This document shows positions 15,326 through 33,800 of a stretch of DNA of 47,563 nucleotides, one piece after another. The position numbers and the translations under genes are program-made. The notes beneath the pieces were generated by a model. It worked only from the letters and a program-made list of their open reading frames with translations, had not been told where the DNA came from and did not search any database. The stretch lies in IMG/VR virus record IMGVR_UViG_3300015263_000348, positions 1 through 47,563 of that record; one strand, given 5' to 3'. The stretch's first letter is position 1. Each line of letters begins with the position of its first letter. Source of the stretch: a virus.

Positions 15326-15372
15326 TGAAGTTCCGAAGATGGGGCGGATCGCAGGGTGATCTGCGCCCCCTT

Positions 15373-18421: not shown

Positions 18422-19727
18422 AGACGTTGCTCATTGCGGTGTTGTAGTAAGTGGAATCTTTTTCGATGCCGACGGCGCGGCGGTTCATCTCTTTGCAGGC
18501 TACGAGGGAGCTGCCGCTTCCGCAGCAGGGGTCGAGGATTTTGTCTCCGGGGAGTGTGGAACATTCAAGGAGACGACGTATGAGTTCCACAGGCTTCTCA
18601 GCAGCATGAATACGTTCGTGTCGTGGGACACGATTAACCCTAATATAGTCGATAGGGCTTGCAAGAAGTCCTTTCTCGCCTCGGGTGGCGAAGAAGATAA
18701 ACTCGGTGGTGATTCGAGGGCCTTGAGCGCCCCAAGGAGCGAGCCCTTCGCTATCGGATTTGCCCCAAATAAGAGGGCGACGGAACGGGGTCCATCCAAT
18801 ACGAGCCGAAGCTGTCTGGAGCCAATCCCAATGTTTAATGTCAGTGAATAGAAACAGGTTTGCCCGGAATTTAGTAACACGGAATCCTTCGGTGAGGATA
18901 CATAGCGCGAGCCGTCGAGCAGTATCCACGTCGTCGTGGTAGTTGTGGTGATGGACCGTGCGCGCGCGGAAGCCGCCTGTGCCAGCGTCAATCCCATACG
19001 GGGGATCAGCGATAATGAGGTCGAATTGAGAAGCGTCAAGCGTTGGGAGAATATCTTCGAGGTCCCCATGATGTATCTCGATGTCAGGTTTGAGTGGCAT
19101 AGAAGCCAAGCGCCGCTTGGCTAAGAGAGCGTTGACGCGCTCTTCTTCTTTTTTCAAGATCAAAGAGTGGGCTTCAGTTGCGTTGCGGGCCTTTGCTATT
19201 GAGGGATCATCAAGATGCTCGGAGATAAGGACTGCCTCCCGAACCACGTCCTTGATGCGGGCCGGTGATTTGGCAGAGCCGATGCCCCCCTTGTCGGCAA
19301 TTTCGGAGGCGGTATCCATCAAGGTCTGTGAGGGATTGGCGGCTTTGCGCATAGAGTGGATAGCTGCAAGGGCCTCGGCGCGCTCCTGCCAAGTCAAGTC
19401 AACTCGGATGATGTTCTCGTCGAGTTCAGCTTCTTTATGGAGAAGATCAGAGTCGAGATCGGTCAGGAGAACGGGAACTTCCTCGGGGCCTATAACGCGC
19501 CCGTTGCAGGAGAACAGAAGTTTGTCCTTTGCAATCAAGTCGATGGCCCTAGTCCTGCGCTCCCCCGCCACAAGTAGGTACTTGTCCCCTTCGAGAGGAT
19601 AAACCGTCGGTGGAGAGAGGAGGCCGCGAGATAGGATGGACTCTTTCAGCTCATTTAGCTGAGTTGGGTGGATGCGCTTCCGCTGCCGATCTTTGATGAC
19701 CAGTTGGGCGCGAGAGATGATTTGCAT
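18372..19727 (-). CDS. ParB-domain DNA methyltransferase fusion
   Basis: 451 residues. The ATG at 19727 has GAGG five bases upstream and is preferred to one at 19772. Residues 1-110 are a ParB/Srx-type domain (LVAGERRTRAIDL, GERR at 55-58). Residues of about 120-200 are a helical ParB-like DNA-binding part. Residues of about 215-451 are an amino-methyltransferase with DPPYG (Asp241-Tyr244) before the SAM motif DPCCGSGSS (from Asp399), the beta-class order, consistent with N6-adenine or N4-cytosine methylation. No restriction enzyme lies beside it, so self-protection of phage DNA or marking of an origin is likely. ParB-methyltransferase fusions are known in phages and mobile elements. Confidence 0.88.
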   Translation of the reverse strand: MQIISRAQLVIKDRQRKRIHPTQLNELKESILSRGLLSPPTVYPLEGDKYLLVAGERRTRAIDLIAKDKLLFSCNGRVIGPEEVPVLLTDLDSDLLHKEAELDENIIRVDLTWQERAEALAAIHSMRKAANPSQTLMDTASEIADKGGIGSAKSPARIKDVVREAVLISEHLDDPSIAKARNATEAHSLILKKEEERVNALLAKRRLASMPLKPDIEIHHGDLEDILPTLDASQFDLIIADPPYGIDAGTGGFRARTVHHHNYHDDVDTARRLALCILTEGFRVTKFRANLFLFTDIKHWDWLQTASARIGWTPFRRPLIWGKSDSEGLAPWGAQGPRITTEFIFFATRGEKGLLASPIDYIRVNRVPRHERIHAAEKPVELIRRLLECSTLPGDKILDPCCGSGSSLVACKEMNRRAVGIEKDSTYYNTAMSNVYGNNPSSPGGVTSTNK

Positions 19728-19745
19728 TTTTGCCTCGGGAAAGGA

Positions 19746-19779
19746 GGGGAGAGTGGTGGCTAGGAACACCACTCTCCCC
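19746..19779 (-). terminator. 13-bp stem hairpin between ssDNA-binding and methyltransferase genes
   Basis: Bases 19746-19758 pair perfectly with 19767-19779 around an 8-base loop. It lies in the 100-base gap after the stop at 19829 and before the start at 19727. The leftward strand has only a short T run after the stem, so partial termination or mRNA end protection is more likely than full termination. Confidence 0.5.
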
Positions 19780-19828: not shown

Positions 19829-20296
19829 TTAGCCGATCTTCACCACTCGCGAGATGCGGGCATATTTGCGGTCAGAGTCGTTCTTGTCTGACTCGTGAAT
19901 GACGTGGACCATAACGGGACCGGCGCCCTTCAAGTTATTGAAGGTCCAGCCGGTCTGGTTGTTCTGACCCACCGCTTCACGAAGGCGGCCAAGGTCTACG
20001 TTCTTGCCCTTGCTGGTGTCAAGACCACCTGCCGCATCCACGTCGATGAACATACCTTTGTGGTAGACGGTGATCTTGTCCCGCCCCGAAGCCGCGAGCA
20101 GCTCGGGAGCTTGGAGCACGAAAGGCGGCGAGAACACGGTGTAGTCCTTGCTGTTCTTCTCCGAAGTGAAGGTACGGAAATCGTCCGGACCAAAGTCGTC
20201 GATCATCGCCCTATAGTCACCCTCCGGCGGAATCCACACGTTGGTGTCGAGGGGCGTGTTGACGGTTTGGTTCATAAACGTAGCTGGATCAAACAT
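19829..20296 (-). CDS. Putative phage single-stranded DNA-binding protein
   Basis: 155 residues with a good ribosome site (aaggaacaactcct). The sequence is strand-rich and acidic, ending in RKYARISRVVKIG; VPxGxY-like WIPPEGDYRAMIDDF near the start recalls proteins that accompany Sak4-type ATPases and act as ssDNA-binding proteins. It follows the Sak4-like gene directly. It lacks the classic acidic SSB tail, so the assignment depends on context. Confidence 0.5.
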   Translation of the reverse strand: MFDPATFMNQTVNTPLDTNVWIPPEGDYRAMIDDFGPDDFRTFTSEKNSKDYTVFSPPFVLQAPELLAASGRDKITVYHKGMFIDVDAAGGLDTSKGKNVDLGRLREAVGQNNQTGWTFNNLKGAGPVMVHVIHESDKNDSDRKYARISRVVKIG

Positions 20297-20331: not shown

Positions 20332-21207
20332 TCACGCAGCAGATGGGGGAGCGAGGCTCGAGGGCTGCTGCGCCATCCCGAGGTCTTTCAGCCTTGCGTT
20401 GTAAGCGTCAACGATGAGGCGGAAATCTTGCGGCAGTTTATCAGAGAGTGGAAGGCCGCGGTTCTTCAGTTCTACTTGAGAGTCGATGGTGGACCAGCGG
20501 AAGCGCGGCTCGGCCATAGTCCTTTGGGCGTAGACTACCTCGGAGAAGAACCGGGGGATAGTTGGTGCCAGCTTGCGGCCAAGAGTTGAGGCCATAATTT
20601 GCTGGACGCCGGTGATCTCGTTGGTCTCCTTTTCAATGTGAGCGGTCAAGGTGAAGTAGCAGGACCGATCAGTCGTTAGCTTCATCAGCAAGTCGCGGAT
20701 GAAGTTCATGGCGATATTCCACTCGCCCATGTGGGCCGTCGGTTTGTGGCCCACTGTCAAGGCCCAAGAGATAACCGAGAGTCCTGACAAGGAGTCGAGG
20801 GCGAGCATTCGGTTTGGCCCCCAAGTCGTCACGTCGCCGAAGTCCTTGTTGGTGCGCTCACAATGGAAGTTGGCGAACGCTCCGAGGAGCTTGGTTGCGG
20901 CGGGTCGGGTTGCGTCTTTGCCGATGCCCGACTTGATCTTGGAGAGGGATTCGAAGTCCATAGCCGAGATTTGGCGGGCCATTGATTCGAGGCCAGTCCA
21001 GCCTTGGGTGGCAGGAAGTACCGAAGTCCAGTGCAACTTGTTGACGTCGGCTTTGATCTGGCGACACCAATCAAGGAGGGACTCGGGGCCGCCCGGCTCC
21101 GTACAAACCACGAACAGCTCTAGGCCAGCAGGAATGGCAGTCACTAGAGAGGAGGATTTGCCGGAGCCGGAGGCCCCGAGAATGAGAGTGGCAGGAGGTT
21201 GAAGCAT
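20332..21207 (-). CDS. Sak4-like RecA-fold ATPase
   Basis: 291 residues. Walker A is GASGSGKSS (Gly11, Lys17, Ser18) at the extreme N-terminus; a Walker B-like NRMLALDSLSG and a YFTLTAHIEKETNE strand follow, as in the single-domain RecA-like Sak4 recombination proteins. Sak4 proteins promote single-strand annealing with a partner ssDNA-binding protein, and one is predicted immediately downstream. The C-terminal 25 residues are Pro/Ser/Ala-rich. The aaggaaccttaacc ribosome site supports the ATG at 21207. Confidence 0.75.
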   Translation of the reverse strand: MLQPPATLILGASGSGKSSSLVTAIPAGLELFVVCTEPGGPESLLDWCRQIKADVNKLHWTSVLPATQGWTGLESMARQISAMDFESLSKIKSGIGKDATRPAATKLLGAFANFHCERTNKDFGDVTTWGPNRMLALDSLSGLSVISWALTVGHKPTAHMGEWNIAMNFIRDLLMKLTTDRSCYFTLTAHIEKETNEITGVQQIMASTLGRKLAPTIPRFFSEVVYAQRTMAEPRFRWSTIDSQVELKNRGLPLSDKLPQDFRLIVDAYNARLKDLGMAQQPSSLAPPSAA

Positions 21208-21219
21208 GGTTAAGGTTCC

Positions 21220-21639
21220 TTATTCTCGTTGCGCGGCGTATCGAGTACCGCACGCCGCGGCGGTCAAACCTAGTTGGACGTGTCCGTAGTCGCTATTGCA
21301 CCATTGGCCCCCTTCGAAGAGTCCGTGGCGGGCCGCGATGCGGGCAACGACGTGACGGTTCGGGATTCTGCAACGGCTATCAACAACGCCACGCCGAAGC
21401 TGGCAATAATCCAGAGCCAGCCCACAACCGTGCATATGACGAGGAGAACAACGCTCCCTGCGAGTGCCGCCCATAAAAAGGATTGTGGCACCGGCGGCTT
21501 CGAGATCGTTGATGAACGCCTGGAACTTCGGTCCAGCGGAAGCGGAAACATTGGCTGTTGCTCCATGCTTTGACTTTACAGTAAAGGCGCTGGCGGGAGT
21601 GGCTATCAAGAGGGCAGCGACAGTCAAGTGACGTATCAT
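21220..21639 (-). CDS. Secreted M15-type peptidase
   Basis: 139 residues. Residues 1-18 are a signal peptide (MIRHLTVAALLIATPASA, cut likely after Ala18). The metal-site motif HGCGLALD supplies His70 and Asp77 in the HxxGxAxD pattern, and WCNSDYGHVQL supplies a later DxxH, together matching zinc D-Ala-D-Ala peptidase/endolysin folds of family M15. It would act in the periplasm on peptide crosslinks. It is translationally coupled (ATGA) to the nuclease gene, far from the lysis cassette, so it may weaken the wall early, block superinfection or be a second endolysin exported by Sec. Confidence 0.78.
   Translation of the reverse strand: MIRHLTVAALLIATPASAFTVKSKHGATANVSASAGPKFQAFINDLEAAGATILFMGGTRRERCSPRHMHGCGLALDYCQLRRGVVDSRCRIPNRHVVARIAARHGLFEGGQWCNSDYGHVQLGLTAAACGTRYAAQRE
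21270..21566 (-). CDS. Possible nested membrane protein inside the M15 gene
   Basis: A second frame wholly inside the M15 peptidase gene encodes 98 residues from ATG 21566. It has two hydrophobic segments (FLWAALAGSVVLLVICTVVG at about 30-49 and WIIASFGVALLIAVA after it) and a polar Ser/Thr-rich tail. Nested membrane genes occur in phage lysis functions, which makes this worth noting. The ribosome site is weak and hydrophobic frames opposite GC-rich genes can arise by chance. Confidence 0.2.
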   Translation of the reverse strand: MEQQPMFPLPLDRSSRRSSTISKPPVPQSFLWAALAGSVVLLVICTVVGWLWIIASFGVALLIAVAESRTVTSLPASRPATDSSKGANGAIATTDTSN

Positions 21640-22649
21640 GGTGTGGGTTCTCCGTCGATGGGATTCTTGTGCAAGGGATTCCAGCGGCGAACTTCGAAGT
21701 CATTGTACCAGTTGTCTTTCTGCTCCTCTGTGGCAGAACAGACGTTCATGAACGTGCAGTTTCCGTAGTTGGTGCAGGCGTCGCCAAGGTTGTAGTCGAA
21801 GTACTTGGCGTCGTGGGCGTGGCGGATACGCCACAAGTCGCGGCGTAGCTGCTCGTGCCAGCGGCGAATTAGATGATCGGGATAGACTTTGACGGCCTCT
21901 TCAAATTTGATCTCACGGACTTGGATGGCTATGCCTCGAATGACTACAGTGTTCAGCGATATGCCTGATTGCTGGCAGGCCCAGACATAGCCAATGAATT
22001 GGTTTCGAAGGTTCCATTGGTCGGCCCAACCGGAGGAGATGCTACGGCCCGTCGTTTTGTCGTCCTCGATGCAGGGGAGGCCTTGATAGGCGCCGAACAT
22101 ATCGAAGCGGCCACTATAGAGCCACGGGTCGCCTGATGGATGGAGAGGAAAGTGGCCGTCGTGGTCGTCCGGGTTATAGCTGACGTAACGAGAAAAGTTA
22201 TTTTCGCCCGTCAAGTCGGGCGGGGCGCATGGCTCTAAGGGGAGAGCGAAGGTGAATTCAAAGGTGGGATGGCTCTCGAAAAAGTAGGGCTGGATGTGGT
22301 CGGTGCGAGCCGGGAACCGCTTGAAGTATTCGTGGACGGCGCGGAGCATATTGTCGTGGGTCTTGGCGGTCTTTTTGTACTCGGGAATTTGGTAGTCGCC
22401 CCAAGCGACGCTGAAGGCGGCGTCTGCGAGTTGAGCGGCCTCGTCTTCGTTGCAGTGGCGAACGAAGATCGCTTTGCGGTAGGCTTCAGTTGCGGAAGCA
22501 AAACAGGCCCCCGCATGAAGGTCGATAGAGATACCTGGAGGGCGCAAGCCAAGGCCGAATTCTATTCGGAACTTTTCGAGGCATGACCGCGCGCAGGTCA
22601 GCATGGTTGAGTCGATGTATTGGGGAAGTTGCATCAGAGGTGAAGGCAT
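21636..22649 (-). CDS. PD-(D/E)XK nuclease, RecB/Cas4-like with likely Fe-S cluster
   Basis: 337 residues. The nuclease core is YSGRFDMFG (Asp183) followed by CIEDDKTT (Asp196, Lys198). Cys19 near the N-terminus and CTNYGNCTFMNVC near residue 300 form the split four-cysteine pattern that holds an iron-sulfur cluster in Cas4/AddB/PD-(D/E)XK_1 exonucleases. It would resect DNA ends for recombination with the Sak4-like and ssDNA-binding proteins nearby, or degrade host DNA. Its stop overlaps the M15 start. Confidence 0.82.
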   Translation of the reverse strand: MPSPLMQLPQYIDSTMLTCARSCLEKFRIEFGLGLRPPGISIDLHAGACFASATEAYRKAIFVRHCNEDEAAQLADAAFSVAWGDYQIPEYKKTAKTHDNMLRAVHEYFKRFPARTDHIQPYFFESHPTFEFTFALPLEPCAPPDLTGENNFSRYVSYNPDDHDGHFPLHPSGDPWLYSGRFDMFGAYQGLPCIEDDKTTGRSISSGWADQWNLRNQFIGYVWACQQSGISLNTVVIRGIAIQVREIKFEEAVKVYPDHLIRRWHEQLRRDLWRIRHAHDAKYFDYNLGDACTNYGNCTFMNVCSATEEQKDNWYNDFEVRRWNPLHKNPIDGEPTP

Positions 22650-22658
22650 CTGTTGCTC

Positions 22659-22877
22659 CTAGCTCCGGGGGTTGAAGATGAGGGTGGCTTGGCCCCGGCT
22701 TGTGACGGTTCTATAGACGAAGTCCCGCCGCGCCCTGATGAAGGTCTGCGAGACTTGGGGCCGCATAGGTCCATAGAGGTTGCTCAGCTCGGTCCCGGCA
22801 AGGCGTTCCTTGACAAAGACGAAGCCGGGGTTGGCGTCATCGGGGATAACGTGCCATTCGAAGTCGGCGGTGGTCAT
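22659..22877 (-). CDS. Small conserved-looking hypothetical protein
   Basis: 72 residues from ATG 22877, which overlaps the upstream stop (ATGA); a longer frame from 23009 runs through the neighbour and is rejected. Sequence reads as a small alpha/beta protein (FEWHVIPDDANPGFVFVKER). No family recognised. It lies between an unknown protein and the RecB-like nuclease in a coupled string. Confidence 0.6.
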   Translation of the reverse strand: MTTADFEWHVIPDDANPGFVFVKERLAGTELSNLYGPMRPQVSQTFIRARRDFVYRTVTSRGQATLIFNPRS

Positions 22878-23440
22878 GACTGATAACCTAGCTCCCGACT
22901 TATCTGCAAGACGTTGTCGGCGTGATCGTCGCCAGCGAGAACGATAAGAGGAGGAAGCCCGTGTGGGTCTGTTCCCGGCTGCGGCGAAACAGTGGAGATA
23001 ACTAGGCACTCGCGCGAAGGAACTTGAAGGCAGATAAGTTCGACGCTGCGAAAGCTAATGGTGTCGGGAATGATTATGGGGTCCGTTTCGTCCATGTTGC
23101 GATCAACGAAGAATTGCGCCAGCATACGCTCTAGCCCAAAGGGGTTGAGGGCATCGCGCATAGCGTCGATCATATCTTGGTAGGTCATGTGAAGGAAGGG
23201 AAGCTGTGTATTTCGCTTTGAATAGTCATGCAAATCGGATACTAGGGACCAGTTCTGCGAGCACATGACTGAGACAGCTTCGAAGATAGGCTCGGCGAAG
23301 TAGACCACGCCGCCTCCATTGACGGTCAAGGCAAAAGCTAACTTCTGCATACGCTCCTTGTCGGAGCCTAAGAGAAAGGTGAAGCGTGGAAGGTTGAGGG
23401 GGCGATCTGAAAGCTGGAAGCTTTGTTGTGAAGGGTGCAT
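22874..23440 (-). CDS. Hypothetical alpha/beta protein
   Basis: 188 residues. RFTFLLGSDKERMQKLAFAL and GGGVVYFAEPIFEAVSVM give an alternating strand-helix pattern a little like deoxynucleotide kinase folds, but there is no P-loop lysine, so I do not call it a kinase. Part of the coupled early leftward run; stop overlaps the next start. Confidence 0.6.
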   Translation of the reverse strand: MHPSQQSFQLSDRPLNLPRFTFLLGSDKERMQKLAFALTVNGGGVVYFAEPIFEAVSVMCSQNWSLVSDLHDYSKRNTQLPFLHMTYQDMIDAMRDALNPFGLERMLAQFFVDRNMDETDPIIIPDTISFRSVELICLQVPSRECLVISTVSPQPGTDPHGLPPLIVLAGDDHADNVLQISRELGYQS

Positions 23441-23450
23441 AGGTATGTTC

Positions 23451-23735
23451 CTAGAACAGCAGGTCGTCGATGGAAGGGGTACGCGGCGGGGTACGAGGCG
23501 CTCGTAGGCTTTGGCGGGGCGGCCTGGGAGTGGCGACTTGCACCACGGCTTCGGGCAACGGTGTGGCGTCCAAGAGGCGAGAGAGCGCCGCCTCGAGGTC
23601 GGCCTTCAACTGGAGAGCGTCAGGGAAGGACAGCAAGCCACCACTCCCATAGGTGGATACTACCACCATACGTTGCGGCGGGGAGTCTATGCTCTCGACG
23701 CAATAAGCGTCTATGTTCGGATTGCGTGGCTGCAT
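23451..23735 (-). CDS. Small protein ending in the IDDLL tag (SIDDLLF)
   Basis: 94 residues. An N-terminal folded part (residues of about 1-65, ending in a helix LQLKADLEAALSRLLDA) is followed by a Pro/Arg-rich linker and the terminal peptide SIDDLLF. Four other leftward proteins end in the same way. The ATG overlaps the stop of the neighbour at 23735 (TAATG), whose product also carries the tag. Function unknown; the architecture suggests an adaptor recruited by its tail. Confidence 0.7.
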   Translation of the reverse strand: MQPRNPNIDAYCVESIDSPPQRMVVVSTYGSGGLLSFPDALQLKADLEAALSRLLDATPLPEAVVQVATPRPPRQSLRAPRTPPRTPSIDDLLF

Positions 23736-23977
23736 TAGAGCAACAGATCGTCGATAGAAGGCTTGGCTTTGGTGCCTGCCACGCGGGCCGTCTTGGGTGG
23801 ACCGGCGTTGCGGCGACGGAGAGTTGATACCACGAAGGACAGCTCTTGCAAGTCCTCAGTGGAGAGTGACTCGTAGCTGCCATTGGCTGAAGCGACTATG
23901 GTCCGGCGGCGCTGTTCAAGCTCCGCTGGAGTCATCGCAGCTAGGCGGGCCTCAAGTTCTTCTCGCGGTGAAGGCAT
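23735..23977 (-). CDS. Small protein ending in the IDDLL tag (SIDDLLL)
   Basis: 80 residues. A helical N-terminal half (PREELEARLAAMTPAELEQR, then LSTEDLQELSFVVSTLRRR) is followed by a basic linker (NAGPPKTARVAGTKAK) and the terminal SIDDLLL. The GAGG six bases before ATG 23977 supports the start. Adjacent to and coupled with another tagged protein, so the two may bind the same partner. Confidence 0.7.
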   Translation of the reverse strand: MPSPREELEARLAAMTPAELEQRRRTIVASANGSYESLSTEDLQELSFVVSTLRRRNAGPPKTARVAGTKAKPSIDDLLL

Positions 23978-23985
23978 GGTTGACC

Positions 23986-24216
23986 TCAGTTTTGAGCAGG
24001 ATAAAGGTCCGTGGCGGGAGGCTCATTGACGGGAACCTTCTTGCCGCGTTCGGCCAGCCAGTTTGACAAGAGTTGGCTGATAAGTCTCGAGCGCTCGCCG
24101 TAACGAGGCTTGCCTGATAGGGGGTCGAGCAACTCGAACTCGACGCTACCGGCTAGAGTAGCGGGCAAAACGATCTTCCAGTCTTTGGTGAGATCGGGGC
24201 TACAGCGACGTGGCAT
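23986..24216 (-). CDS. Small protein, possible DNA-binding
   Basis: 76 residues from ATG 24216, supported by GAGGA eight bases upstream; the longer frame from 24321 would translate a promoter and is rejected. A central strand followed by RYGERSRLISQLLSNWLAERGK gives a short strand-helix-helix order like ribbon-helix-helix regulators, but this is weak. First gene after the promoter at 24293-24321. Confidence 0.55.
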   Translation of the reverse strand: MPRRCSPDLTKDWKIVLPATLAGSVEFELLDPLSGKPRYGERSRLISQLLSNWLAERGKKVPVNEPPATDLYPAQN

Positions 24217-24292
24217 TGTGATGGTCCTCGTGCAAAAGGGGGCGGAGAGTGAATAGCACCCTGCCCCTTGATAGGAAGTCCTGATGGTTTTT

Positions 24293-24321
24293 AGGATACC
24301 ATGACAGGGCGGTGCTGTCAA
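24293..24321 (-). promoter_or_regulatory. Leftward sigma70-like promoter
   Basis: On the minus strand TTGACA (24316-24321) and TATCCT (24293-24298) are separated by 17 bases. It lies in the gap between the stop at 24331 and the start at 24216 and would drive the replication and recombination genes downstream. It is the best -35/-10 match I saw. Confidence 0.7.
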
Positions 24322-24330
24322 CAGGTTTTT

Positions 24331-24819
24331 TCATACTTCGCTCGGTGGATAGCTCTTCTTGCGTTGCAGCTCGTCGAGCAGCTCCTCGAAGTCCTCGCGA
24401 TCTGGCTCTGGTTTGGGTTCCGCTTCTGACTTGGGGGGCATGACGCCGCCAGCGGTGATCCCGACGGAGGCGAGGACCTCAGCGAACTCCGAGTCGTGGG
24501 GGCGAATGACTATGAGGGCGCCGCGCTTGCCATCCGGGTCGTCCTTCCAGGCTTCTGGGCCGCCTTCGGAGACGGCTTTGTCACCCCAGAAGAGGGATAC
24601 TTTGGCGCGAGCTGCGATCATATAGTCTTGGTGATTCTCCTGACGCATACGTTGGCGAAGCGTATGGATGCGCCTCTGGAAGGTGTGGGCTTTCTTCTTG
24701 CCTTCGCCGCCACCTTCGCTGAAGGGAATGACGATACGGCGGCGACCGCCTTCGACTAGGGCTGTCATTAACTCGGGGCCGAAGGCTTCGATGGGGTATT
24801 TGGTCTTGGGTGCGGTCAC
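24331..24819 (-). CDS. Hypothetical early protein
   Basis: 162 residues, GTG start at 24819 with aaggagaacttca upstream. A basic N-terminal part (HTFQRRIHTLRQRMRQENHQ) is followed by a compact domain and a Pro/Glu-rich linker ending in an acidic helix (DFEELLDELQRKK). No family recognised. The promoter at 24293-24321 begins ten bases after its stop. Confidence 0.6.
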   Translation of the reverse strand: MTAPKTKYPIEAFGPELMTALVEGGRRRIVIPFSEGGGEGKKKAHTFQRRIHTLRQRMRQENHQDYMIAARAKVSLFWGDKAVSEGGPEAWKDDPDGKRGALIVIRPHDSEFAEVLASVGITAGGVMPPKSEAEPKPEPDREDFEELLDELQRKKSYPPSEV

Positions 24820-24830
24820 TGAAGTTCTCC

Positions 24831-25250
24831 TTAACTGATGGGCTTCAGCTCATCAGAGCTGCGGGGGCGGGGGCCAATTAGGGGCCGGTTGTAGAGGCTG
24901 CGGATTTCGAGCCTGTAATGGTTGCGGCTGCAAAGCTCATAGGCTTCTTGCATACCGAGGCTCCAGCCTAGGTCGATGTAGAAAACAAAGAGATCTGAGA
25001 CGATGCCCCAACTGTAGCCAGCAGCGATACCTCGGACGCGCTCGGCTTCGATGGTGTCGTCAAGGACTCCGGGTTGGGTGTAGAGAGCGTGGGAAGCAAA
25101 GGGCGCTTCGCCCCGCATCAAGGAATCATGGAGGCAAGCTCTTAGGTAGCGGAGGTTGCGGATAGTGTCCCCTCGAAAAGGGGACTCGATGATGACGCGC
25201 CGCGCGAGGGCAGGAATCTCGCGCGGGCGGGCAGGAGAGTTGCTGGTCAT
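24831..25250 (-). CDS. DUF4406/DUF7768-like, nucleoside deoxyribosyltransferase-related
   Basis: 139 residues. VIIESPFRGD near residue 20, a helix with NLRYLRACLHDSLMRGEAPF, ASHALYTQPGVLDD, ERVRGIAAG and LFVFYIDLGWSLGM match the phage family related to nucleoside 2-deoxyribosyltransferases. Family members are predicted to act on nucleosides or nucleotide signals. The ATG overlaps the previous stop. Confidence 0.75.
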   Translation of the reverse strand: MTSNSPARPREIPALARRVIIESPFRGDTIRNLRYLRACLHDSLMRGEAPFASHALYTQPGVLDDTIEAERVRGIAAGYSWGIVSDLFVFYIDLGWSLGMQEAYELCSRNHYRLEIRSLYNRPLIGPRPRSSDELKPIS

Positions 25251-25444
25251 CGCTTCCTCATCATGTGCTGGAGGGACTTGCTGTGGCCGGTGTCGCGGGC
25301 GTGCTTGTTTGCGGTGGCGATAGCGACGCCTTCGGGGGCTCCACTTGCGATGATGGCTTCGGCCTGCTTGGCGGCTTTAGCTGCTTGTTTTCGGGAGAGC
25401 TTCTTGTTGTGCTTGCGGCGGTACTCCTCGGGGGTCCAGGGCAT
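25247..25444 (-). CDS. Small basic protein
   Basis: 65 residues, rich in Lys, Arg and Ala (YRRKHNKKLSRKQAAKAAKQ), with ggagacctcca before the ATG. It probably binds nucleic acid or an acidic partner. It overlaps the neighbour at 25377 by 68 bases, but the strong ribosome site supports it. Confidence 0.6.
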   Translation of the reverse strand: MPWTPEEYRRKHNKKLSRKQAAKAAKQAEAIIASGAPEGVAIATANKHARDTGHSKSLQHMMRKR

Positions 25445-25685
25445 TGGAGGTCTCCTTACTTGGGGGTTTAGGGGGACGGATTGGCCCCTCTATGGTGAGG
25501 GAGATGAAGTCTCCCTCTTTCAGAGTGGGCTTTTCAGGCCCGACTGAAAATGAAGCGTTGAAGATACGCACGCGCCACCCAAGGCTCTCGACTTCGAAGG
25601 TGGCGTCGGGGCCGGTGCCGGAGAGCCAGTGCTTTCGGGTTTCTTCGTAGACGCCAGAGACTTGGCCATACAAGATGTACTTCAT
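25377..25685 (-). CDS. Hypothetical protein with disordered tail
   Basis: 102 residues. Residues 1-65 look like a small beta-barrel (YILYGQVSGVYEE, WRVRIFNASFSVG, GDFISLTIEG), and the rest is Pro/Ser/Gln-rich. The last 22 residues overlap the next gene, so the true end of selection on this tail is unclear. No family recognised. Confidence 0.5.
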   Translation of the reverse strand: MKYILYGQVSGVYEETRKHWLSGTGPDATFEVESLGWRVRIFNASFSVGPEKPTLKEGDFISLTIEGPIRPPKPPSKETSNALDPRGVPPQAQQEALPKTSS

Positions 25686-25701
25686 GGGGATGCCTAGAGG
25701 T

Positions 25702-25782
25702 CTAGTTGGTGAGATAGAACAATAGGTAAGTGATGGTGAAGGCCACCACTATTCCGACAAGAGAGGATTCGGTGAGGGTCAT
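25702..25782 (-). CDS. 26-residue single-pass membrane peptide
   Basis: ATG 25782 to a TAG at 25702-25704. The product is one hydrophobic helix (VGIVVAFTITYLLFYL, residues 9-24) with a short acidic start and polar end. It fits exactly in the gap between two genes, with 11 bases before it and 16 after. The ribosome site is poor, so it may depend on translation from the gene upstream. Confidence 0.4.
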   Translation of the reverse strand: MTLTESSLVGIVVAFTITYLLFYLTN

Positions 25783-25793
25783 GGCAGAAGCTT

Positions 25794-26072
25794 TCAGGTT
25801 GAGAGGCCCGCCGCTTCGCGGATAGCTTTTTCGAGAGCTTCTTTGGCGCGAATGGCGTCCTGCGGGTTGACAGTCAGGTCTTTGGTGAGGGCGTCGTAGC
25901 CTTTGGAGACTATGGCCATCATCACGGAGTTTTCGACGCGGATCTTGCGCCGCTCTACTTCGGATTTGTAGACGAGGAGCTTGTCCTCGCAGTCACGGAC
26001 GAGCCACTCGATGTAGTCGATGGGCACGTCTTTGAGGTCGGAACCGGCGTACTTGCCGAACTTTAGTTGCAT
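25794..26072 (-). CDS. DUF3820-like small protein
   Basis: 92 residues. The start LKFGKYAGSDLKDVPIDYIE matches the FGKYxGxxLxxxPxxYLxW pattern of DUF3820/QSregVF_b domains, often found at the ends of exonucleases and alone in phages. The rest is helical. Ribosome site aaggaacgactccc. Role unknown, perhaps linked to DNA processing. Confidence 0.65.
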   Translation of the reverse strand: MQLKFGKYAGSDLKDVPIDYIEWLVRDCEDKLLVYKSEVERRKIRVENSVMMAIVSKGYDALTKDLTVNPQDAIRAKEALEKAIREAAGLST

Positions 26073-26122
26073 GGGAGTCGTTCCTTATTTGTTCATTCGT
26101 GGTAGCAATTTTCTGGGAATGG

Positions 26123-26575
26123 CTATTCCTTCTCTGTAGTACGAGTCTCACTTCCTGGGTGAGGACTTACATAACCACCTTGCTGAAGCATCGGGATGCT
26201 GCTCGACACATTCTCGCGAACGATTGTGTTCCTGAAGATGGTTGCGAATACGTTACTGTAGATTTTGGACTCTGCTTCGGCAACGGCCATCTTCTTTTCG
26301 AGTTCCGTTACTTTCTTCTCGCGCTCGACGAGTGCTTTATGGCGAGCTTCCCAAGCAGCCAGTTCGACTTTCACTTTGGAAAGTTGAGCAGTGGCGTCGT
26401 TGTATTGAGTGGTGCGATCCTTGACCTCAGTCTCCTTGACCAACAGCTTATCAGCGAGGATTTTGTTGTTGTCTCGGAGCTGTTTCACTCCTTCGACGGC
26501 TTCGAGCGAGAACGTGCCCTTTTCGATGAGCTCGTTCATTGCGTTCATCAACTTAGTCATATCCTTCTCTGCCAT
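26123..26575 (-). CDS. Coiled-coil protein
   Basis: 150 residues. Residues of about 10-105 are an almost unbroken charged heptad region (LRDNNKILADKLLVKETEV, WEARHKALVEREKKVTELEK), then a Ser/Pro/Gly-rich tail. Likely an oligomeric scaffold or an inhibitor. No family recognised. ggagactaca precedes the ATG. Confidence 0.6.
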   Translation of the reverse strand: MAEKDMTKLMNAMNELIEKGTFSLEAVEGVKQLRDNNKILADKLLVKETEVKDRTTQYNDATAQLSKVKVELAAWEARHKALVEREKKVTELEKKMAVAEAESKIYSNVFATIFRNTIVRENVSSSIPMLQQGGYVSPHPGSETRTTEKE

Positions 26576-26604
26576 TGTAGTCTCCTGTTGTTGGGAGGTG
26601 AAAG

Positions 26605-26676
26605 TTATTCCTTTTTGAGTGCGCGGATGGCGGCAGCAACGACATCAGCCAGAGCTTCTTTGGGGATGGAGGTCAT
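26605..26676 (-). CDS. 23-residue amphipathic peptide (possible)
   Basis: ATG 26676 follows the upstream stop by two bases and the frame stops at 26605-26607. MTSIPKEALADVVAAAIRAL would form one amphipathic helix. It fills the gap between two genes, but is short enough to be chance. Confidence 0.3.
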   Translation of the reverse strand: MTSIPKEALADVVAAAIRALKKE

Positions 26677-26678
26677 GG

Positions 26679-27152
26679 CTATTTGGTTCCGTAATTGATG
26701 TGGTCGTTGAGGGTGGGCCATGCTTCTAGTTCGGCTACGGTGGTGGGAGGGAGGCCGCTGACTAGAAAGGGGCGCCACTGTTTGGGTTCGAGAACGAAGC
26801 CTTCGATTGTGGGGCAGTTGGCGATAAAGGCTCGGACGTAACGGTGATGGCCGTCGATGAAAAAGACGTCGGGCCGACCGTTGGTGAAGGTGCCGTCTTT
26901 GCCAAGGATGATGGGCTCTCGGCAGTGGAGAACGCGCAGGTTCATGACGCGTTTAAAGTTGACAGTGTTGCGGTCAATGAAGGATTGGGCCAGCTTTGGG
27001 TCAATAGGTATGAGGTGCCGTGTGGGTTCCGATTCTTGGGGATGGGCCAGCAGGAACTCGCGCAGACGGGAGGCGGCGATGTTGATGTTCTCGCCTGATG
27101 GCAGGACGTGGGTGAAAATGGTGTCGGAGCGGTCAAGGTCGCTGTAGTGCAT
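26679..27152 (-). CDS. ParB/Srx-like domain protein
   Basis: 157 residues with a strong ribosome site (gaggagcccttc). The segment RPDVFFIDGHHRYVRAF (about 93-109) matches the DGHHRxxA motif of the ParB/sulfiredoxin nucleotide-binding fold, and strand-helix elements around it fit. There is no ParB helix-turn-helix, so it is a stand-alone domain that may bind or hydrolyse CTP or ATP. The methyltransferase at 18372-19727 carries a related domain. Confidence 0.6.
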   Translation of the reverse strand: MHYSDLDRSDTIFTHVLPSGENINIAASRLREFLLAHPQESEPTRHLIPIDPKLAQSFIDRNTVNFKRVMNLRVLHCREPIILGKDGTFTNGRPDVFFIDGHHRYVRAFIANCPTIEGFVLEPKQWRPFLVSGLPPTTVAELEAWPTLNDHINYGTK

Positions 27153-27162
27153 GAAGGGCTCC

Positions 27163-27636
27163 TCAGATCAAGTCGTCAATGGTGACATTGCGGCGGCGGG
27201 CCGCTTTGATATTGGTGGCGAACTGTTGTGCGGGCTGCGGCTGTGGCTTCGGCTGTGGCTTCGGCCTCCTGGGACGCGGCGGAGAGCGAGGCGGCGGTGG
27301 TGGCGGCTGGTTGTGCCAGTGCAAGGGTCCGCTTGGTGGAGGTGGTGGCGGTGGTGGGGCTCCAGGGCCTACAGTGTTGCCAGCGTGGAAGCCTGCGTTG
27401 TGCGAGGGGGCTGGCTTGAAACCGGCGGGCGTGGACAAGTTCTTGAAGGGGTCGCCAATGACGGTGACTTTGACTTTGCCACGCAGGATGGTGTCCCAGT
27501 CGCCACCGAACTTGGAGACTTGCTCGTTGGCCTTGCGAATGGCCATGAGCGCCTCCGCGTCGGTGGACGACGTGGTGAGCCGCATCAGCTTGATGAGCAG
27601 CTCTAGATTGGGCGGGTCTTTCGGGTCGATAGGCAT
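27163..27636 (-). CDS. Pro-rich linker protein ending in the IDDLL tag (TIDDLI)
   Basis: 157 residues. Residues of about 1-70 are folded and helical (PNLELLIKLMRLTTSSTDAE). Then come a Pro-rich stretch with eight or more consecutive prolines, a PKPQPKPQPQ repeat, a basic RRR and the terminal TIDDLI. The long disordered arm joins the folded part to the tag shared with four other early proteins. Its stop is followed at once by the ribosome site of the ParB-like gene. Confidence 0.7.
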   Translation of the reverse strand: MPIDPKDPPNLELLIKLMRLTTSSTDAEALMAIRKANEQVSKFGGDWDTILRGKVKVTVIGDPFKNLSTPAGFKPAPSHNAGFHAGNTVGPGAPPPPPPPPSGPLHWHNQPPPPPPRSPPRPRRPKPQPKPQPQPAQQFATNIKAARRRNVTIDDLI

Positions 27637-27645
27637 CGGGGCTAC

Positions 27646-28308
27646 CTACTTTGAATGACCTAAAAAGCCACCAAATTGTTGGCGCTCGTCCTCAGAGAAG
27701 TGCATATCGTCGCCGGTGCGGCCATAGCGGGCTCGTTTGGCGGCTAGGGACTTGGCTGCGTCGGTGAGGCGCTTTTGGCTAACGCCGATGGCGGACTCGG
27801 CTGAGGAGCCTAGAAGGGCGGCTTGGCGAGCGTTGTCGAACTGGGCTCCGATGAAGGTGACTTGCCAGCCTTTGGCGCGGCACCAGTCGAGGAGGGCTTT
27901 GGCCTGGACCAGGTCGGTGTATTGGGAGGCGTTCTCGTCGCCGTCGGTGACGATCACTATTGAGCAGCGCGGCGGGTCGAGGTCGCGGAGGCGGCGGCAC
28001 ATAGTGTTGATGGCGTCATAGAGGGGAGTCATACCCCAATGGGCGCCGACGGGCTCTTCGCGCAGGGATTTCCATTGGGTGATGGGAATGTCGCGCTGGA
28101 CGCAGTCGGGGGCTTGGGAGTCGAAGGTTTGGAGAATGATGTGGCTGTCGATGTGGGCATCGCGGACGCCGCGAACGTAGGCTTCGATGGCGTCGAGGGA
28201 GTCCCACCAGCCGCTTTGCATGGATGAGGAGCCATCCAATAGGATGTAGTCGTGCTGCTGTTCGGACTTTTGAAGGCCGCCGGGGCGGTGCATGATTTGA
28301 GTTGACAT
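27646..28308 (-). CDS. von Willebrand factor A domain protein
   Basis: 220 residues. A complete MIDAS is visible: DGSSS (Asp25, Ser27, Ser29), a conserved Thr in GMTPLYDAI and IVTDGDEN. Strands IVIVTDG and VTFIGAQF fit a VWA fold, which binds a partner through a metal ion. The C-terminal 50 residues are helical and basic. No AAA+ partner of the MoxR type lies beside it. It is flanked by two tagged proteins, so it may form or police a complex with them. Confidence 0.85.
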   Translation of the reverse strand: MSTQIMHRPGGLQKSEQQHDYILLDGSSSMQSGWWDSLDAIEAYVRGVRDAHIDSHIILQTFDSQAPDCVQRDIPITQWKSLREEPVGAHWGMTPLYDAINTMCRRLRDLDPPRCSIVIVTDGDENASQYTDLVQAKALLDWCRAKGWQVTFIGAQFDNARQAALLGSSAESAIGVSQKRLTDAAKSLAAKRARYGRTGDDMHFSEDERQQFGGFLGHSK

Positions 28309-28340
28309 TGTGCAGGATTCCTAGCTAGGGGTTGAAGGGA

Positions 28341-28736
28341 TTAGAACAAGAGGTCGTCGATGGTGGGTACGGGCTGGCGCGGCTTGCGGGCCGGTTTGTC
28401 CGTGGGGAGTCCTTGGCCTGCGAAGATGGGGGCTACGCGGGCTCGTTCGGCCTCCGCTTCTTGCGGCGGGGCGGGCAGGTGGGCTAGGTCGAGGGACATA
28501 TAGCATCGACTGCAAGTGGGGGTAGTGGTCTCGGGCATTGAGATGTAGTCGATGGGGAGGTTGTAGGCGAAGAGGTTGATGGGCATTAAGCGGTGCGCCG
28601 CTTTGGGAGTGCCGAGAGATGAGGGAATTAGGTAGTGGGCGTAGATGGCGCTGTAGGTGGATTCGTGGCCGCAGCAGCGGCAACGGGAGATATGTCGGTG
28701 GACGACATACTTGGTAGGGTGGCTAGAAGGTTGCAT
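28341..28736 (-). CDS. Zinc-ribbon-like protein ending in the IDDLL tag (TIDDLLF)
   Basis: 131 residues. Cys19, Cys22 and Cys75, Cys78 form two CxxC knuckles (CRCC and CSRC), a zinc-ribbon arrangement split by about 50 residues, which suggests nucleic-acid or protein binding. A Glu/Ala then Pro/Lys/Arg linker leads to the terminal TIDDLLF. It is the first gene of the main leftward block, so it would be expressed very early. Confidence 0.75.
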   Translation of the reverse strand: MQPSSHPTKYVVHRHISRCRCCGHESTYSAIYAHYLIPSSLGTPKAAHRLMPINLFAYNLPIDYISMPETTTPTCSRCYMSLDLAHLPAPPQEAEAERARVAPIFAGQGLPTDKPARKPRQPVPTIDDLLF

Positions 28737-28797
28737 GGTAGCCTCTTGAAGGTGAGAGGTCGGTAGATTTTGGGGCTGGTAGGCCCATTACAGGGCG

Positions 28798-28827
28798 ATT
28801 TTAGGCACAGGGCGCGAGTCAGGGCAA
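28798..28827 (-). promoter_or_regulatory. Leftward promoter candidate
   Basis: Minus-strand TTGCCC (28822-28827), 18-base spacer, TAAAAT (28798-28803). It is about 60 bases upstream of the first main leftward gene. A TCAGGG copy overlaps the -35 box, so repeat-binding proteins could control it. Confidence 0.45.
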
Positions 28828-28883
28828 CCCCTAGGATTGCATGGCTGGTATGCGTTTTTGCCGTGGCTGTAGCCTCATGCTGC

Positions 28884-28948
28884 CCCTGACTCGGTGCCCT
28901 GACAGGGAACCCTGATGCGTGTCCCTCATGGGTGCCCCTGACCTATCG
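28884..28948 (-). repeat. Array A: five tandem 13-bp units (minus orientation)
   Basis: CCCTGA-type cores begin at 28884, 28897, 28910, 28923 and 28936, exactly 13 bases apart: ccctgac, ccctgac, ccctgat, ccctcat, ccctgac. A degenerate sixth unit may lie at 28871. Read on the minus strand each unit ends TCAGGG or TGAGGG, like the units of array B. Confidence 0.7.
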
Positions 28949-29158
28949 TGTTTTTGGTGAATTTGGGTGGCTGTTGGGGTGAGCGGCGAAGCCGCGAACA
29001 CCGGGCGGTTCGCTGATGGCGAAAGGCGCCCTCTTGGGTTCTCTGAAGAAAAAAATAAGAGAGGTCTAATACCAATACCACTCTAGAAGGGAGAGATCCC
29101 AACCTTGGGAGTTCCAAACACCACTGCCAACCGGGGAAGCCAAAAACCCTCGCGCGCG

Positions 29159-29223
29159 GTATAAGGGGGCAGTATAAGGGTACAGTGTCAGGGGTGCGCG
29201 TTAGGGTGCAGTATAAGGGCGCG
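29159..29223 (+). repeat. Array B: five tandem 13-bp units (plus orientation)
   Basis: Units begin at 29159, 29172, 29185, 29198 and 29211: gtataaggg, gtataaggg, gtgtcaggg, gcgttaggg, gtataaggg, each followed by four less conserved bases. The period is exactly 13. The core xTxAGGG is shared with array A in the opposite orientation. The last unit overlaps a leftward -10 box. Confidence 0.75.
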
Positions 29224-29239
29224 TCTGAGGCTTTCTCAA
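29210..29239 (-). promoter_or_regulatory. Leftward promoter overlapping repeat array B
   Basis: Minus-strand TTGAGA (29234-29239), 18-base spacer, TATACT (29210-29215). The -10 box lies in the last unit of array B, so a protein bound to the array would block it. It would read through the control region into the main leftward block. Confidence 0.55.
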
Positions 29240-29453
29240 TTAAATGGCCACTGGTGCGGAGTCGCCACGCTTGGCGGCGGGATACCTAGACTCTAGCTTA
29301 ATCGCACTAGCCGCCAAATGTGTTAAGATACGGGCTACTCTATTAAAATGTACCCTTGCGGCGGGCCGTTTTACTTCGCCCCCTTTAGTTGAGTTCAGTC
29401 AATCGCGGGACTGGTTTAGTTGGGTTCTCTGCGTCCCTGGCCCCCGCGCGAAA

Positions 29454-29473
29454 GCGGGGCCTTTCGGCCCCGC
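29454..29473 (-). terminator. Terminator-like hairpin after the 29500-30066 gene
   Basis: GCGGGGCC (29454-29461) pairs with GGCCCCGC (29466-29473) around a four-base loop (GAAA on the minus strand). On the minus strand it is followed by TTT and lies 27 bases after the stop of the gene at 29500. It would separate that gene from the main leftward block. Confidence 0.6.
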
Positions 29474-29499
29474 CCCTCTCGCGTTTCGCTGCTGGCCGA

Positions 29500-30066
29500 T
29501 TAGCCAAGCAGGTCATCAATCGACTTGACCGCCTTACCGACTTGCGCCGCGTACTCAGTCGCGACAGCCGGGACTTGGCGGGCCGTTCGCATATAGCCCT
29601 TGTCGGATTCGAGCTTGGCGCGAATTTTGGCCTCATCGGCAGTCTTGCCGGATTTGGCCGCCACCGCAACAATGGCGCGGGCGAGCGCGTCTTTGTCAAC
29701 GCGAATCGCAACGCCGCCGCCCCGCTCGGCCCAAGTCGGATCACTGGTATCCTTTGCCCCGGCGATAAAGTCAGTGATGGCCGCCCCGGCATCATCGGGA
29801 GTGCCCGGCTCATCCTTATCGTTCAGGACCGTGTTCGCCACGTTGCCGACTTTGGTGTGAAAGCCAAAGATAGCGCACATGGTAGTGAAAGAGCCAGCGG
29901 GGCCAAGCTGTTCAACGAATTCCACAGTCTTGTCGCCGTTGGCATCGAGTAGCGAGTAGCGGGCGCCCGTGGCCTCTTCGATCTTGTTCACGGGCTGGCC
30001 GTTGGAATCCACATAGCCGCGATCCGATACGGACTTGCGCTTAGTGGTAGCAGTTTCGTCAGCCAT
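29500..30066 (-). CDS. Solo early protein ending in the IDDLL tag (SIDDLLG)
   Basis: 188 residues from ATG 30066, nine bases after GGAG; a longer frame from 30144 would cross the promoter. Residues of about 15-100 look folded (ARYSLLDANGDKTVEFVEQL), and residues of about 125-175 are a basic helical region (DKDALARAIVAVAAKSGKTA). The last residues are VKSIDDLLG. It has its own promoter (30116-30144) and terminator (29454-29473), pointing to strong or separately timed expression. No family recognised; a nucleic-acid-binding protein would fit the charge pattern. Confidence 0.75.
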   Translation of the reverse strand: MADETATTKRKSVSDRGYVDSNGQPVNKIEEATGARYSLLDANGDKTVEFVEQLGPAGSFTTMCAIFGFHTKVGNVANTVLNDKDEPGTPDDAGAAITDFIAGAKDTSDPTWAERGGGVAIRVDKDALARAIVAVAAKSGKTADEAKIRAKLESDKGYMRTARQVPAVATEYAAQVGKAVKSIDDLLG

Positions 30067-30897: not shown

Positions 30898-33800
30898 ATG
30901 GCTGACAGCACCCTCGCCCTACTTGCTGCCTCTGGCGCACTGACCGGAACCGAGCTATTCTACTCAGATAACTTAGTCGCGGACGTCAAAGTCACCGCCG
31001 ATCAGATCAAAACCTTCACTTCGGCCTCCCCGGCCCTAGTCACCCCTAATCTCGGAACCCCCTCGGCTGGCGTCCTCTCCAACTGTACCGGCCTCCCCCT
31101 CGGAGCGGGAACTACCGGCACCTTGGCAGTCAACCGAGGGGGTACCAATATCACCTCTTACGCGGTGGGCGACCTCCTTTATGCATCAGCAGCGGCAGTT
31201 CTGTCCGTTTTAGCGGCAGTCGCCACTGGGAATGCTCTCATATCAGGGGGCCTCGCGACGGCTCCTTCGTGGGGCAAAATTGGCCTCGCGACGCACGTCT
31301 CTGGCAACCTTCCCGTCGCCAATTTGAACTCCGGCACTGGGGCCTCTGCCACTACCTTCTGGTGTGGCGACGCCACCTGGAAGGCCCCATACACGGCTGC
31401 GGCCCTCACGAAAACCGACGATACCAACGTCACTTTGACCCTCGGAGGGACTCCCGCCACGGCTCTCTTGCAGGCCACCTCTTTGACCCTTGGCTGGACG
31501 GGCACCTTGGCGGCCACAAGAGGCGGCACGGGAGCCAGCTCTTATACTATAGGCGATATTCTCTACGCAAATACAGCTACAACTCTGGCTAAGCTCTCCG
31601 ACGTGGCCACCGGAAACGCCCTTATCTCTGGGGGCGCTGGAGTGGCACCCCTATGGGGAAAGATCGGCCTTACGACGCACGTCACAGGCAATCTTCCAGT
31701 CACGAACCTAAACTCGGGCACCGGAGCAACCTCTTCTACCTTTTGGAGGGGTGATGGTACTTGGGCCACCCCGGCTGGCGGGGGCGACGTATCTGGCCCT
31801 GGCGCTTCAGCTGTCAATGACTTGGCTCTTTGGAACAACATATCTGGCACCTTGTTGAAGGCCCAAGCTCCAGCCGCCCTCACCAAAACTGATGACACCA
31901 ACGTAACTTTAACTCTTGGTGGCTCGCCGTCCACGGCGCTGGTCAATGCGGCTTCGATAACGGTCGGTTGGACGGGATCTTTAGCAACTACTCGAGGCGG
32001 CACTGCCATCACTACCTATACTTTAGGAGATATTCTCTACTCTTCAGCTGCGAACACCTTAGCGAAGCTGGCGGGTAACACTACAGCCACTAAGCAATTC
32101 TTGACGCAGACAGGAACCGGCGCCGTCTCGGCGGCCCCTGCTTGGGGAGCTATTGCGGCTGGGGATATGCCAATCTTTGTGGCCTCGGGAGCTTCCCATG
32201 CTTCGGGCGCGGTGCCCGATCCGGGCGCAACTCCTGGAACTACCAAGTTCTTGCGTGAAGACGCCACTTGGGCGGTTCCCGCTGGAAGCGGCAGCCCGGG
32301 AGGCACCTCGGGACAAATTCAATACAACAATGCGGGAGCCTTCGGCGGCTTCACAATGGGCGGCGACGCCACAACGGACACCTCGACCGGGGTTCTGACG
32401 ATTGCCAACACCGTCGTCACTTATGCAAAAATACAGAACGTCTCCGCGACTTCGCGGTTCTTGGGGCGAATTACGGCTGGCGCAGGCTCCATCGAGGAGC
32501 TGACGGGCACCCAAGCAACGACTTTGCTGGACGTTTTCACCTCCACTTTGAAGGGACTTGTCCCCTTATCCGGCGGCGGGACGACAAACTTCCTTCGAGC
32601 AGACGGAACTTGGGCTGCGCCCGGCGGCTCGGGATCTCCCGGAGGCGTTTCTGGAAACGTCCAGTACAACAACGCTTCTGCCTTCGGCGGGATGGGTGGC
32701 ACGACTTGGGATGAGACTAATCGCTCTCTAGCGATAGTTGGGGCCACTCTCACTACCGCTAGTCATCCAATTTTTGATATGTCTCAAACTTGGAATGACG
32801 CGGCTGTTGCGTTTACTGCTCTCAAGCTGAACGTCACGAATACGGCGAGTGATGCCGCTTCGTTGTTGATGGACTGGCAGGTTGGTGGCACTAGTCTAGC
32901 CAGTATTGATGTTGGTGGCAACGGAGTATTTACAGGATCTGTCAAAGGATTTGTGTTTCGGCCCACTTCTTTAAGTGAAGCTCAGAATTATGGGTATTCA
33001 CGTTTTGTAGGCGATGGGTCAAAACTTGGTCTTTCCTATACTAACGGTAATATTTTTCTGTGGATGGCAGACCATCAAATTGTCATCGCAAATGCAGCTA
33101 CTCTCGGTTTTTCTGGAGGTAATACTTCGGCAGCAACTGACATAGTACTTGTTCGTGAAGCTGCTGCTCAACTTGCTCAACGCAACGGCACCAATGCTCA
33201 GACCTTCCGGGTCTACAACACCTACACTGACGCCTCAAACTATGAACGAGGTGTTCTTGATTGGACATCGTCCGCTAACAACTTCATCATTGGAGCGGAG
33301 GCTGCAGGGACTGGAACTGTTCGTAACGTCATCCTACTTCATGGCGGAACATTCGCGATTGGCGCTAATGATCGCAAGCGTCTGGCCATTACGAATGATG
33401 GCAATGATCCAGTAATAACAAACAATGGCACCGGCGCAACCCACCTTTGGATTAAACGACAAGGAAGTATGGGTGGCGCTATCTATATGAACGCCAATGA
33501 TAGTACGGTTAATGTCACCGCAGACATTAACCAGATGGTGCAAATCAGTGCGAGCTCTATTACAAATACTACTTATTCTACGGCTTTCACTATCCGAGGC
33601 CATCAGCGAAGTCTAGACGAGGCGTGTCAGCCTCTCAATATTGTAGGCGGCGCTCAAGCGGCAGGCTCTACTGTAAATCTAACAGGCGGCAACGTATCTA
33701 TGACGGGCGGCGCCGGAGCCTCTGGTTCCGCGGGAGCTGCTCATGGGGGTAATGTCTATCTTGATGGTGGCCAAGGCTTCGGCACTGGCTCGCATGGAAC

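Follow-up and report, generated by a model that had tools for sequence, protein, structure and literature searches.

Five unrelated early proteins of a podovirus-like phage end in nearly the same short acidic-hydrophobic peptide, (S/T)IDDL(L/I), which is called the tip hereafter. They are encoded in IMG/VR virus record IMGVR_UViG_3300015263_000348, a whole virus record of 47,563 bases that was analyzed at its full length (the window). In related phages the homologs of these proteins carry tips of a different spelling, and that spelling is again common to the proteins of each genome. Judged from the sequences compared, the conserved feature is this within-genome sharing, and (S/T)IDDLL is only the spelling used by this phage; an earlier note on the same DNA had taken IDDLL itself as the conserved feature, which does not hold, as the peptide differs per genome though the system is widespread. 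On balance we favor the view that the tip serves as a C-terminal docking peptide private to each phage, by which early DNA-metabolism proteins are recruited to a replication/recombination hub that the phage itself encodes.

A peptide shared by five early proteins

The late structural genes of the window are on the plus strand, while the early block, on the minus strand, encodes a primase, a split family A DNA polymerase, a dUTPase, a ParB-fused methyltransferase, a DUF669-like probable single-stranded DNA-binding protein (SSB), a Sak4-like ATPase and an exonuclease. The five tip-bearing proteins (TAG1 to TAG5) belong to the early block, and all of them translate on the minus strand to the C-termini given in the earlier note:

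23451-23735 (-): TAG1, a 94-residue protein with a Pro/Arg-rich arm and the tip SIDDLLF (tip codons 23454-23474), read from the translation
23735-23977 (-): TAG2, an 80-residue helical protein with a Lys-rich arm and the tip SIDDLLL (tip codons 23738-23758), read from the translation
27163-27636 (-): TAG3, a 157-residue protein with a long poly-Pro arm and the tip TIDDLI (tip codons 27166-27183), homologs in 7 genomes
28341-28736 (-): TAG4, a 131-residue zinc-ribbon-like protein with two Cys pairs and the tip TIDDLLF (tip codons 28344-28364), homologs in 7 genomes
29500-30066 (-): TAG5, a 188-residue protein encoded by the first gene of the early block, with the tip SIDDLLG (tip codons 29503-29523)

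Also as previously described, a Pro-rich or Lys/Arg-rich arm precedes the tip in four of the five (TAG1 to TAG4) and is not clear in TAG5. The homolog search with TAG1 was empty, a simple codon-usage gene caller did not call the 23451-23735 open reading frame, and homology between TAG1 and a similar-looking tagged protein of relative L100 was not detectable. TAG5 is a member of a large family with tailed members, which most genomes encode once or twice, and a single-protein search with TAG5 in annotated phages gave no match. Its AlphaFold2 model is of moderate confidence (predicted local distance difference test (pLDDT) 77, predicted template modeling score 0.57) and had no significant match among solved and viral folds, OB-fold included.

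Within the window, the pattern [ST]IDDL[LI].?$ matched exactly TAG1 to TAG5 among 627 open frames of at least 40 codons, and a six-frame scan found no (S/T)IDD(L/I) besides these five. A strict DNA pattern for (S/T)IDDLLF followed by a stop had two matches in the window vs. none in 100 dinucleotide shuffles. Moreover, when the C-termini of the window were grouped by similarity without supervision, the largest set comprised exactly the same five proteins, while no comparable set emerged in T7, HK620, N4 or PaP2; the largest-set statistic is weak alone (random internal peptides give sets of 4-6), and it is the comparative tests that carry weight. Beyond the window, none of the other loci in a first comparison had a SIDDLL-type end, and when 2.9 million viral contigs were searched for the motif at the DNA level, there was a single match, in a fragment with genes on the opposite strand. 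The search was nearly empty because the spelling of the tip differs per phage. A search for [ST]IDDL[LI] ends, as the earlier note had proposed, therefore yields almost nothing for the motif itself, and it is genome-matched tips that exceed permutations (below).

At 296 same-residue tip positions in seven genomes, codons were identical in a fraction of 0.42 vs. 0.35 expected from codon usage; between the copies of the tip in the window, equal residues had the same codon in 43% of cases vs. 36% expected. Such near-random use of synonymous codons indicates that the peptide, not the DNA, has been kept, in agreement with the earlier note; DNA duplication as the source of the tips was rejected on this comparison. 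The slight excess of codon identity is what could be cited for recent DNA copying between gene ends as the origin of the similarity, but synonymous and stop codons differ freely and the upstream residues share no similarity, so this explanation is largely refuted by the codon comparison and scarcely credible.

Concerted change of the tips between genomes

At the DNA level the early region had no match in annotated phages, and by protein the closest annotated relatives were MW202489, Microcystis phage Mel-JY34 and Vibrio phage VS-ABTNL-3. Seven relatives (members of the window's clade, further ones being found by a search with the neighboring von Willebrand factor A (vWA)-domain protein) carry homologs of three to four TAG proteins. 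Their tips differ from those of the window and are again common within each genome, e.g. TP(S/T)L(D/N)xL, TTDDLM and (I/V/L)DxLA. The tips of the homologs were as follows:

L008, which is genome G002 (Sak4 63% identical to that of the window): TVTDLA, AVSDLA, TIGDLA and AIDALV, for TAG2, TAG3, TAG4 and TAG5 respectively
G008: SLDALA, IDIDSLA, TIDDLA, SVDGLV
L099: PTLDSI, PSLNDI, PSLDEI
L100: TPTLDVL, TPSLNDL, TPTLDQL, VQLTSL
G010: PTPDQL, PRASDL, PTPDEL, KATDL
G011: TTDDLMIDI, TTADLMKDIDF, STDDLMKGLDL, TTDDLMAAIT
G012: PSLEDL, PQLGEL, PAIEDL, PQASDL

The TAG2 homolog of L009 ends in TLEDLA. Furthermore, the tip of L100 is found on additional, unrelated proteins of that phage (TPGLDKL, KPTLDQL and PPTLDTL), and so is the tip of G012 (GPTISDL, EPSVQEL and EPATEDL).

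Across protein families, the similarity of the last 10 residues in this clade (8 genomes) was 19.6 within genomes vs. 13.0 between genomes. When genomes were permuted within each protein family, 0 of 20,000 trials reached 19.6 (the highest was 17.0), and the three 10-residue blocks upstream of the tip showed no difference within vs. between genomes. With the tip's own family left out, 28 of 42 tips were assigned to their own genome among eight (shuffled mean 5.5, maximum 15), a result which is supportive and not independent, as the set includes extra tips picked for matching.

The same effect was found in the wider Sak4 group. A ~70-residue family with a helical body, a Lys/Ala linker and a tip occupies the TAG2 position in about 65 loci and resembles TAG2 of the window in position and architecture. 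The usual tip here is (I/V)DxDxLLxEL, and deviations from it match in both families: LFAEL in L054; GALKxSLR in L050, L057 and L084; D(I/F)F in L062; and ALADLDSM in L039. Similarity of TAG5 tips to TAG2-type tips was 23.2 within vs. 17.0 between genomes (p=4e-5, 16 clades as units), with no within-genome effect in the regions -40 to -20 and -60 to -40 (p=0.53 and 0.44 respectively). Two tails that drift independently along one tree would not leave the tip pairs of a genome more alike than other pairs, and the excess therefore indicates concerted change. Scanning all other early genes against the tips of their own genome gave a modest excess (1.1% vs. 0.5% at score 24), suggesting few tagged proteins in the wider group beyond the two families. 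In the L055-L087 clade (e.g., L058, L072 and L080) the exonuclease and the ParB-methyltransferase have a common helix-like C-terminal end (ALGDELKGLLG, ALGNELKNLLGGL and ALGDELAALMGL), which may be either an extended form of the tip or a docking motif in its own right.

Genome-by-genome change bears on three other explanations. It is unlikely that the partner of the tips is a host protein (RNA polymerase, clamp or some other hub) and that differences between hosts account for the variation in spelling: early phage proteins do often bind host machinery, but core host hubs are strongly conserved, yet tips differ sharply among phages of one clade. The known clamp consensus is also absent. Sliding-clamp-binding peptides resemble the tips in that one short peptide is found on many unrelated proteins (there for one replisome hub), but the tips vary far more between genomes and lack Q-x-x-L-(x)-F, so the likeness to clamp-binding peptides that had been suggested for the window falls away; when we looked for Q-x-x-(L/M)-x-(F/L) or QL(S/D)LF, the tips of the window had no Gln at the needed position and most tips of the relatives were without it.

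Alternatively, the tips and basic arms might bind each other or DNA, so that the tagged proteins condense without a separate receptor. Arms are often Lys/Arg-rich and tips acidic, and homotypic contact would also change the tips of one genome together; but the arms are not genome-matched, short acidic tips repel one another, and charge attraction alone would not fix a spelling, which makes condensation improbable. Least probable of the three is a role in degradation, in which a host protease would recognize the tips and so time the removal of early proteins. Hydrophobic C-terminal ends can be degrons and the tips of some genomes end in LA; however, tips vary widely between genomes, most are without LAA (the end of ssrA-like degrons, read by host ClpXP), and genome-specific matching would not be expected for a conserved protease.

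Carriers of the tip and its candidate receptor

Tips are also carried by enzymes: the ParB-methyltransferase in G012 and G002, a deoxynucleoside monophosphate (dNMP) kinase in L100 and G012 (phrog_139, E about 1e-27), endonuclease VII in L053 (Pfam, E 6e-21), a DUF6011 protein in L016 and the exonuclease in one clade. Methyltransferase and exonuclease were rejected as general carriers (p=0.31 and 0.08 respectively; 0.31 and 0.06 among proteins with C-terminal extensions), and on these two proteins tips are at most lineage-specific. No tip was found at the C-termini of polymerase, SSB and primase; those of Sak4 showed a slight within-genome resemblance (p=0.006), to which we attach no reading.

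Tips are confined to non-structural proteins. Among the late structural genes of six whole or near-whole genomes there was no match to the tag patterns, and the sole match on the late strand was the TAG5 homolog of G002; the patterns were written per genome after the tips were seen, so these counts show confinement, not significance. Of interest here is a possible role as capsid-loading peptides, which would take early proteins into the virion for injection. In encapsulins a flexible arm and a short C-terminal peptide likewise direct unrelated cargo into one HK97-fold shell, but the carriers here are replication-block proteins without any capsid link found, and the tagged enzymes are enzymes of DNA metabolism. 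Loading is thus quite improbable, although no argument against it can be drawn from the fact that structural proteins lack tips. As for the capsid compartment as hub, which the earlier note had listed, no structural gene in the six genomes carries a tip and nothing points there.

In the docking model that we favor, each carrier would have a folded part of small size, followed by a flexible arm rich in Pro or Lys/Arg and, at the free C-terminus, the short tip. All tips of a phage would bind the same receptor, which is probably encoded by the phage itself as part of its replication/recombination core. The receptor is placed in that core because the C-terminal tails of T7 and HK620 dock there. 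Five gene products of the window are candidates:

14111-15433 (-): primase/helicase (DUF3987-like, from protein matches)
15373-16134 (-): DNA polymerase A, polymerase part
16586-18421 (-): DNA polymerase A, exonuclease part
19829-20296 (-): DUF669-like probable SSB, without an acidic tip
20332-21207 (-): Sak4-like annealing ATPase

DNA polymerase A or Sak4 would lead, followed by SSB or primase. The two family A DNA polymerase open reading frames (15373-18421 (-)) are separated by the dUTPase gene, a split similar to that annotated in Vibrio phage VS-ABTNL-3. The model of the DUF669-like protein has a pLDDT of 96, and its best fold matches are weak, OB-folds and SSBs being among them. Two further roles were discarded: the vWA protein as a general hub, since it was found only in the window's clade, and the SSB as tail carrier, since the DUF669-like protein has no tip.

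Known replication tails offer partial parallels. In HK620, which has a pair of Sak4 and DUF669-type SSB as does the window, Sak4 needs the last six residues of the SSB (NDYPPF) in order to bind DNA covered by that SSB (PMC5928155), and the acidic tail of the T7 helicase binds basic patches of T7 DNA polymerase (PMC5997990). The tips resemble those of SSBs (DDDIPF in E. coli, NDYPPF in HK620) in being short, acidic-hydrophobic and set on a flexible arm. They differ in that one SSB bears the tip and many proteins bind it, whereas here many non-SSB proteins are carriers and the SSB-like protein is tipless; moreover there is no terminal Pro-Phe, the ends being LLF, LLL, LI and LLG in the window and LA, SI, DL and others in relatives. 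T7 gp2.5 (SSB) and gp4 (primase-helicase) end alike, in DEDGDF and SNDTDF, so that in T7 as here an acidic-hydrophobic free C-terminus is found on more than one replication protein per phage (five in the window and 3-7 in relatives, DNA-metabolism enzymes included). Unlike in T7, the carriers here number 3-7 or more, many are small and without known function, and their well-defined tip changes its spelling in concert between phages. The acidic, Leu-rich C-terminal tail of T4 gp32, which the tips also resemble, recruits replication proteins with the SSB as its sole carrier; to our knowledge T4 has no genome-matched set of unrelated tail carriers. In open-access full-text literature on shared C-terminal motifs in phage proteins we found no such tag described, a coverage that is incomplete and does not prove novelty.

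Docking would gather accessory proteins at the replicating phage DNA: zinc-ribbon and small helical proteins in the window, and in some relatives methyltransferase, dNMP kinase, endonuclease VII and exonuclease. The receptor would differ between phages, so that all tips of one genome change together. The docking code for one hub proposed in the earlier note is strongly supported in so far as each related genome has its own, internally shared tip, while the hub is not singled out. Several lines of evidence weigh against docking at a replication hub: i) partial covariation of tips with core proteins is weak for each of them (0.18 for the N part of the polymerase and 0.11 for Sak4), so that no receptor stands out; ii) several tagged proteins are without known function, and the link to the replisome comes from a minority of carriers; iii) in the wider group, significance drops when fewer clades serve as units, to p=0.011 for 6 clades and p=0.34 for 3 (where the test has no power); iv) the TAG5 homolog of G002 (L008:230-784 (-), equal to G002:31739-32293) is on the strand opposite the early block.

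A broader proposal is plausible but falls somewhat short of probable: an address code across a broad group of phages, in which 3-7 or more unrelated early proteins per phage have the same tip, the phage-encoded receptor co-evolves with it and new proteins are recruited by gaining it. If so, private spelling could exclude the proteins of a co-infecting phage, or evade factors aimed at the receptor. Most small early genes of phages lack a known function; a tip common within a genome would place many of them in one physical complex and provide a simple rule for spotting new members. One peptide changing in concert across unrelated proteins is unusual evidence that these proteins have a receptor in common and that it co-evolves with the peptide. 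Should the replisome be the hub, the tip would also be a portable recruitment tag and would show by what route accessory enzymes are added to the replication machinery of a phage.

Other genes around the tagged proteins

The remaining early genes of the window that were compared carry no tip here:

18372-19772 (-): ParB-fused DNA methyltransferase, tagged in G002 and G012
21636-22649 (-): PD-(D/E)XK-type exonuclease, tagged-like in one distant clade
23986-24216 (-): small early protein adjoining TAG2, which 17 of the 24 genomes compared encode
24331-24819 (-): early protein whose L100 homolog ends in KTPGLDKL, the L100 tip
27646-28308 (-): vWA-domain protein between TAG3 and TAG4, a marker of the clade

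The protein at 22874-23440 (-) has no family match and takes the same place as the tip-bearing dNMP kinase of L100 and G012; its start resembles that kinase and a clear P-loop is absent, so it may be a decayed kinase. Inside the recombination operon, a small protein (21220-21639 (-)) has an N-terminus that looks like a signal and matches endolysin weakly (E 0.064). Between TAG4 and TAG5 (28737-29499, ~760 bases) there was no convincing gene among codon-usage gene calls. On the plus strand, two late proteins of very unequal lengths (3824-4399 and 30898-36645) have nearly identical C-terminal ~40 residues, which resemble a common C-terminal domain.

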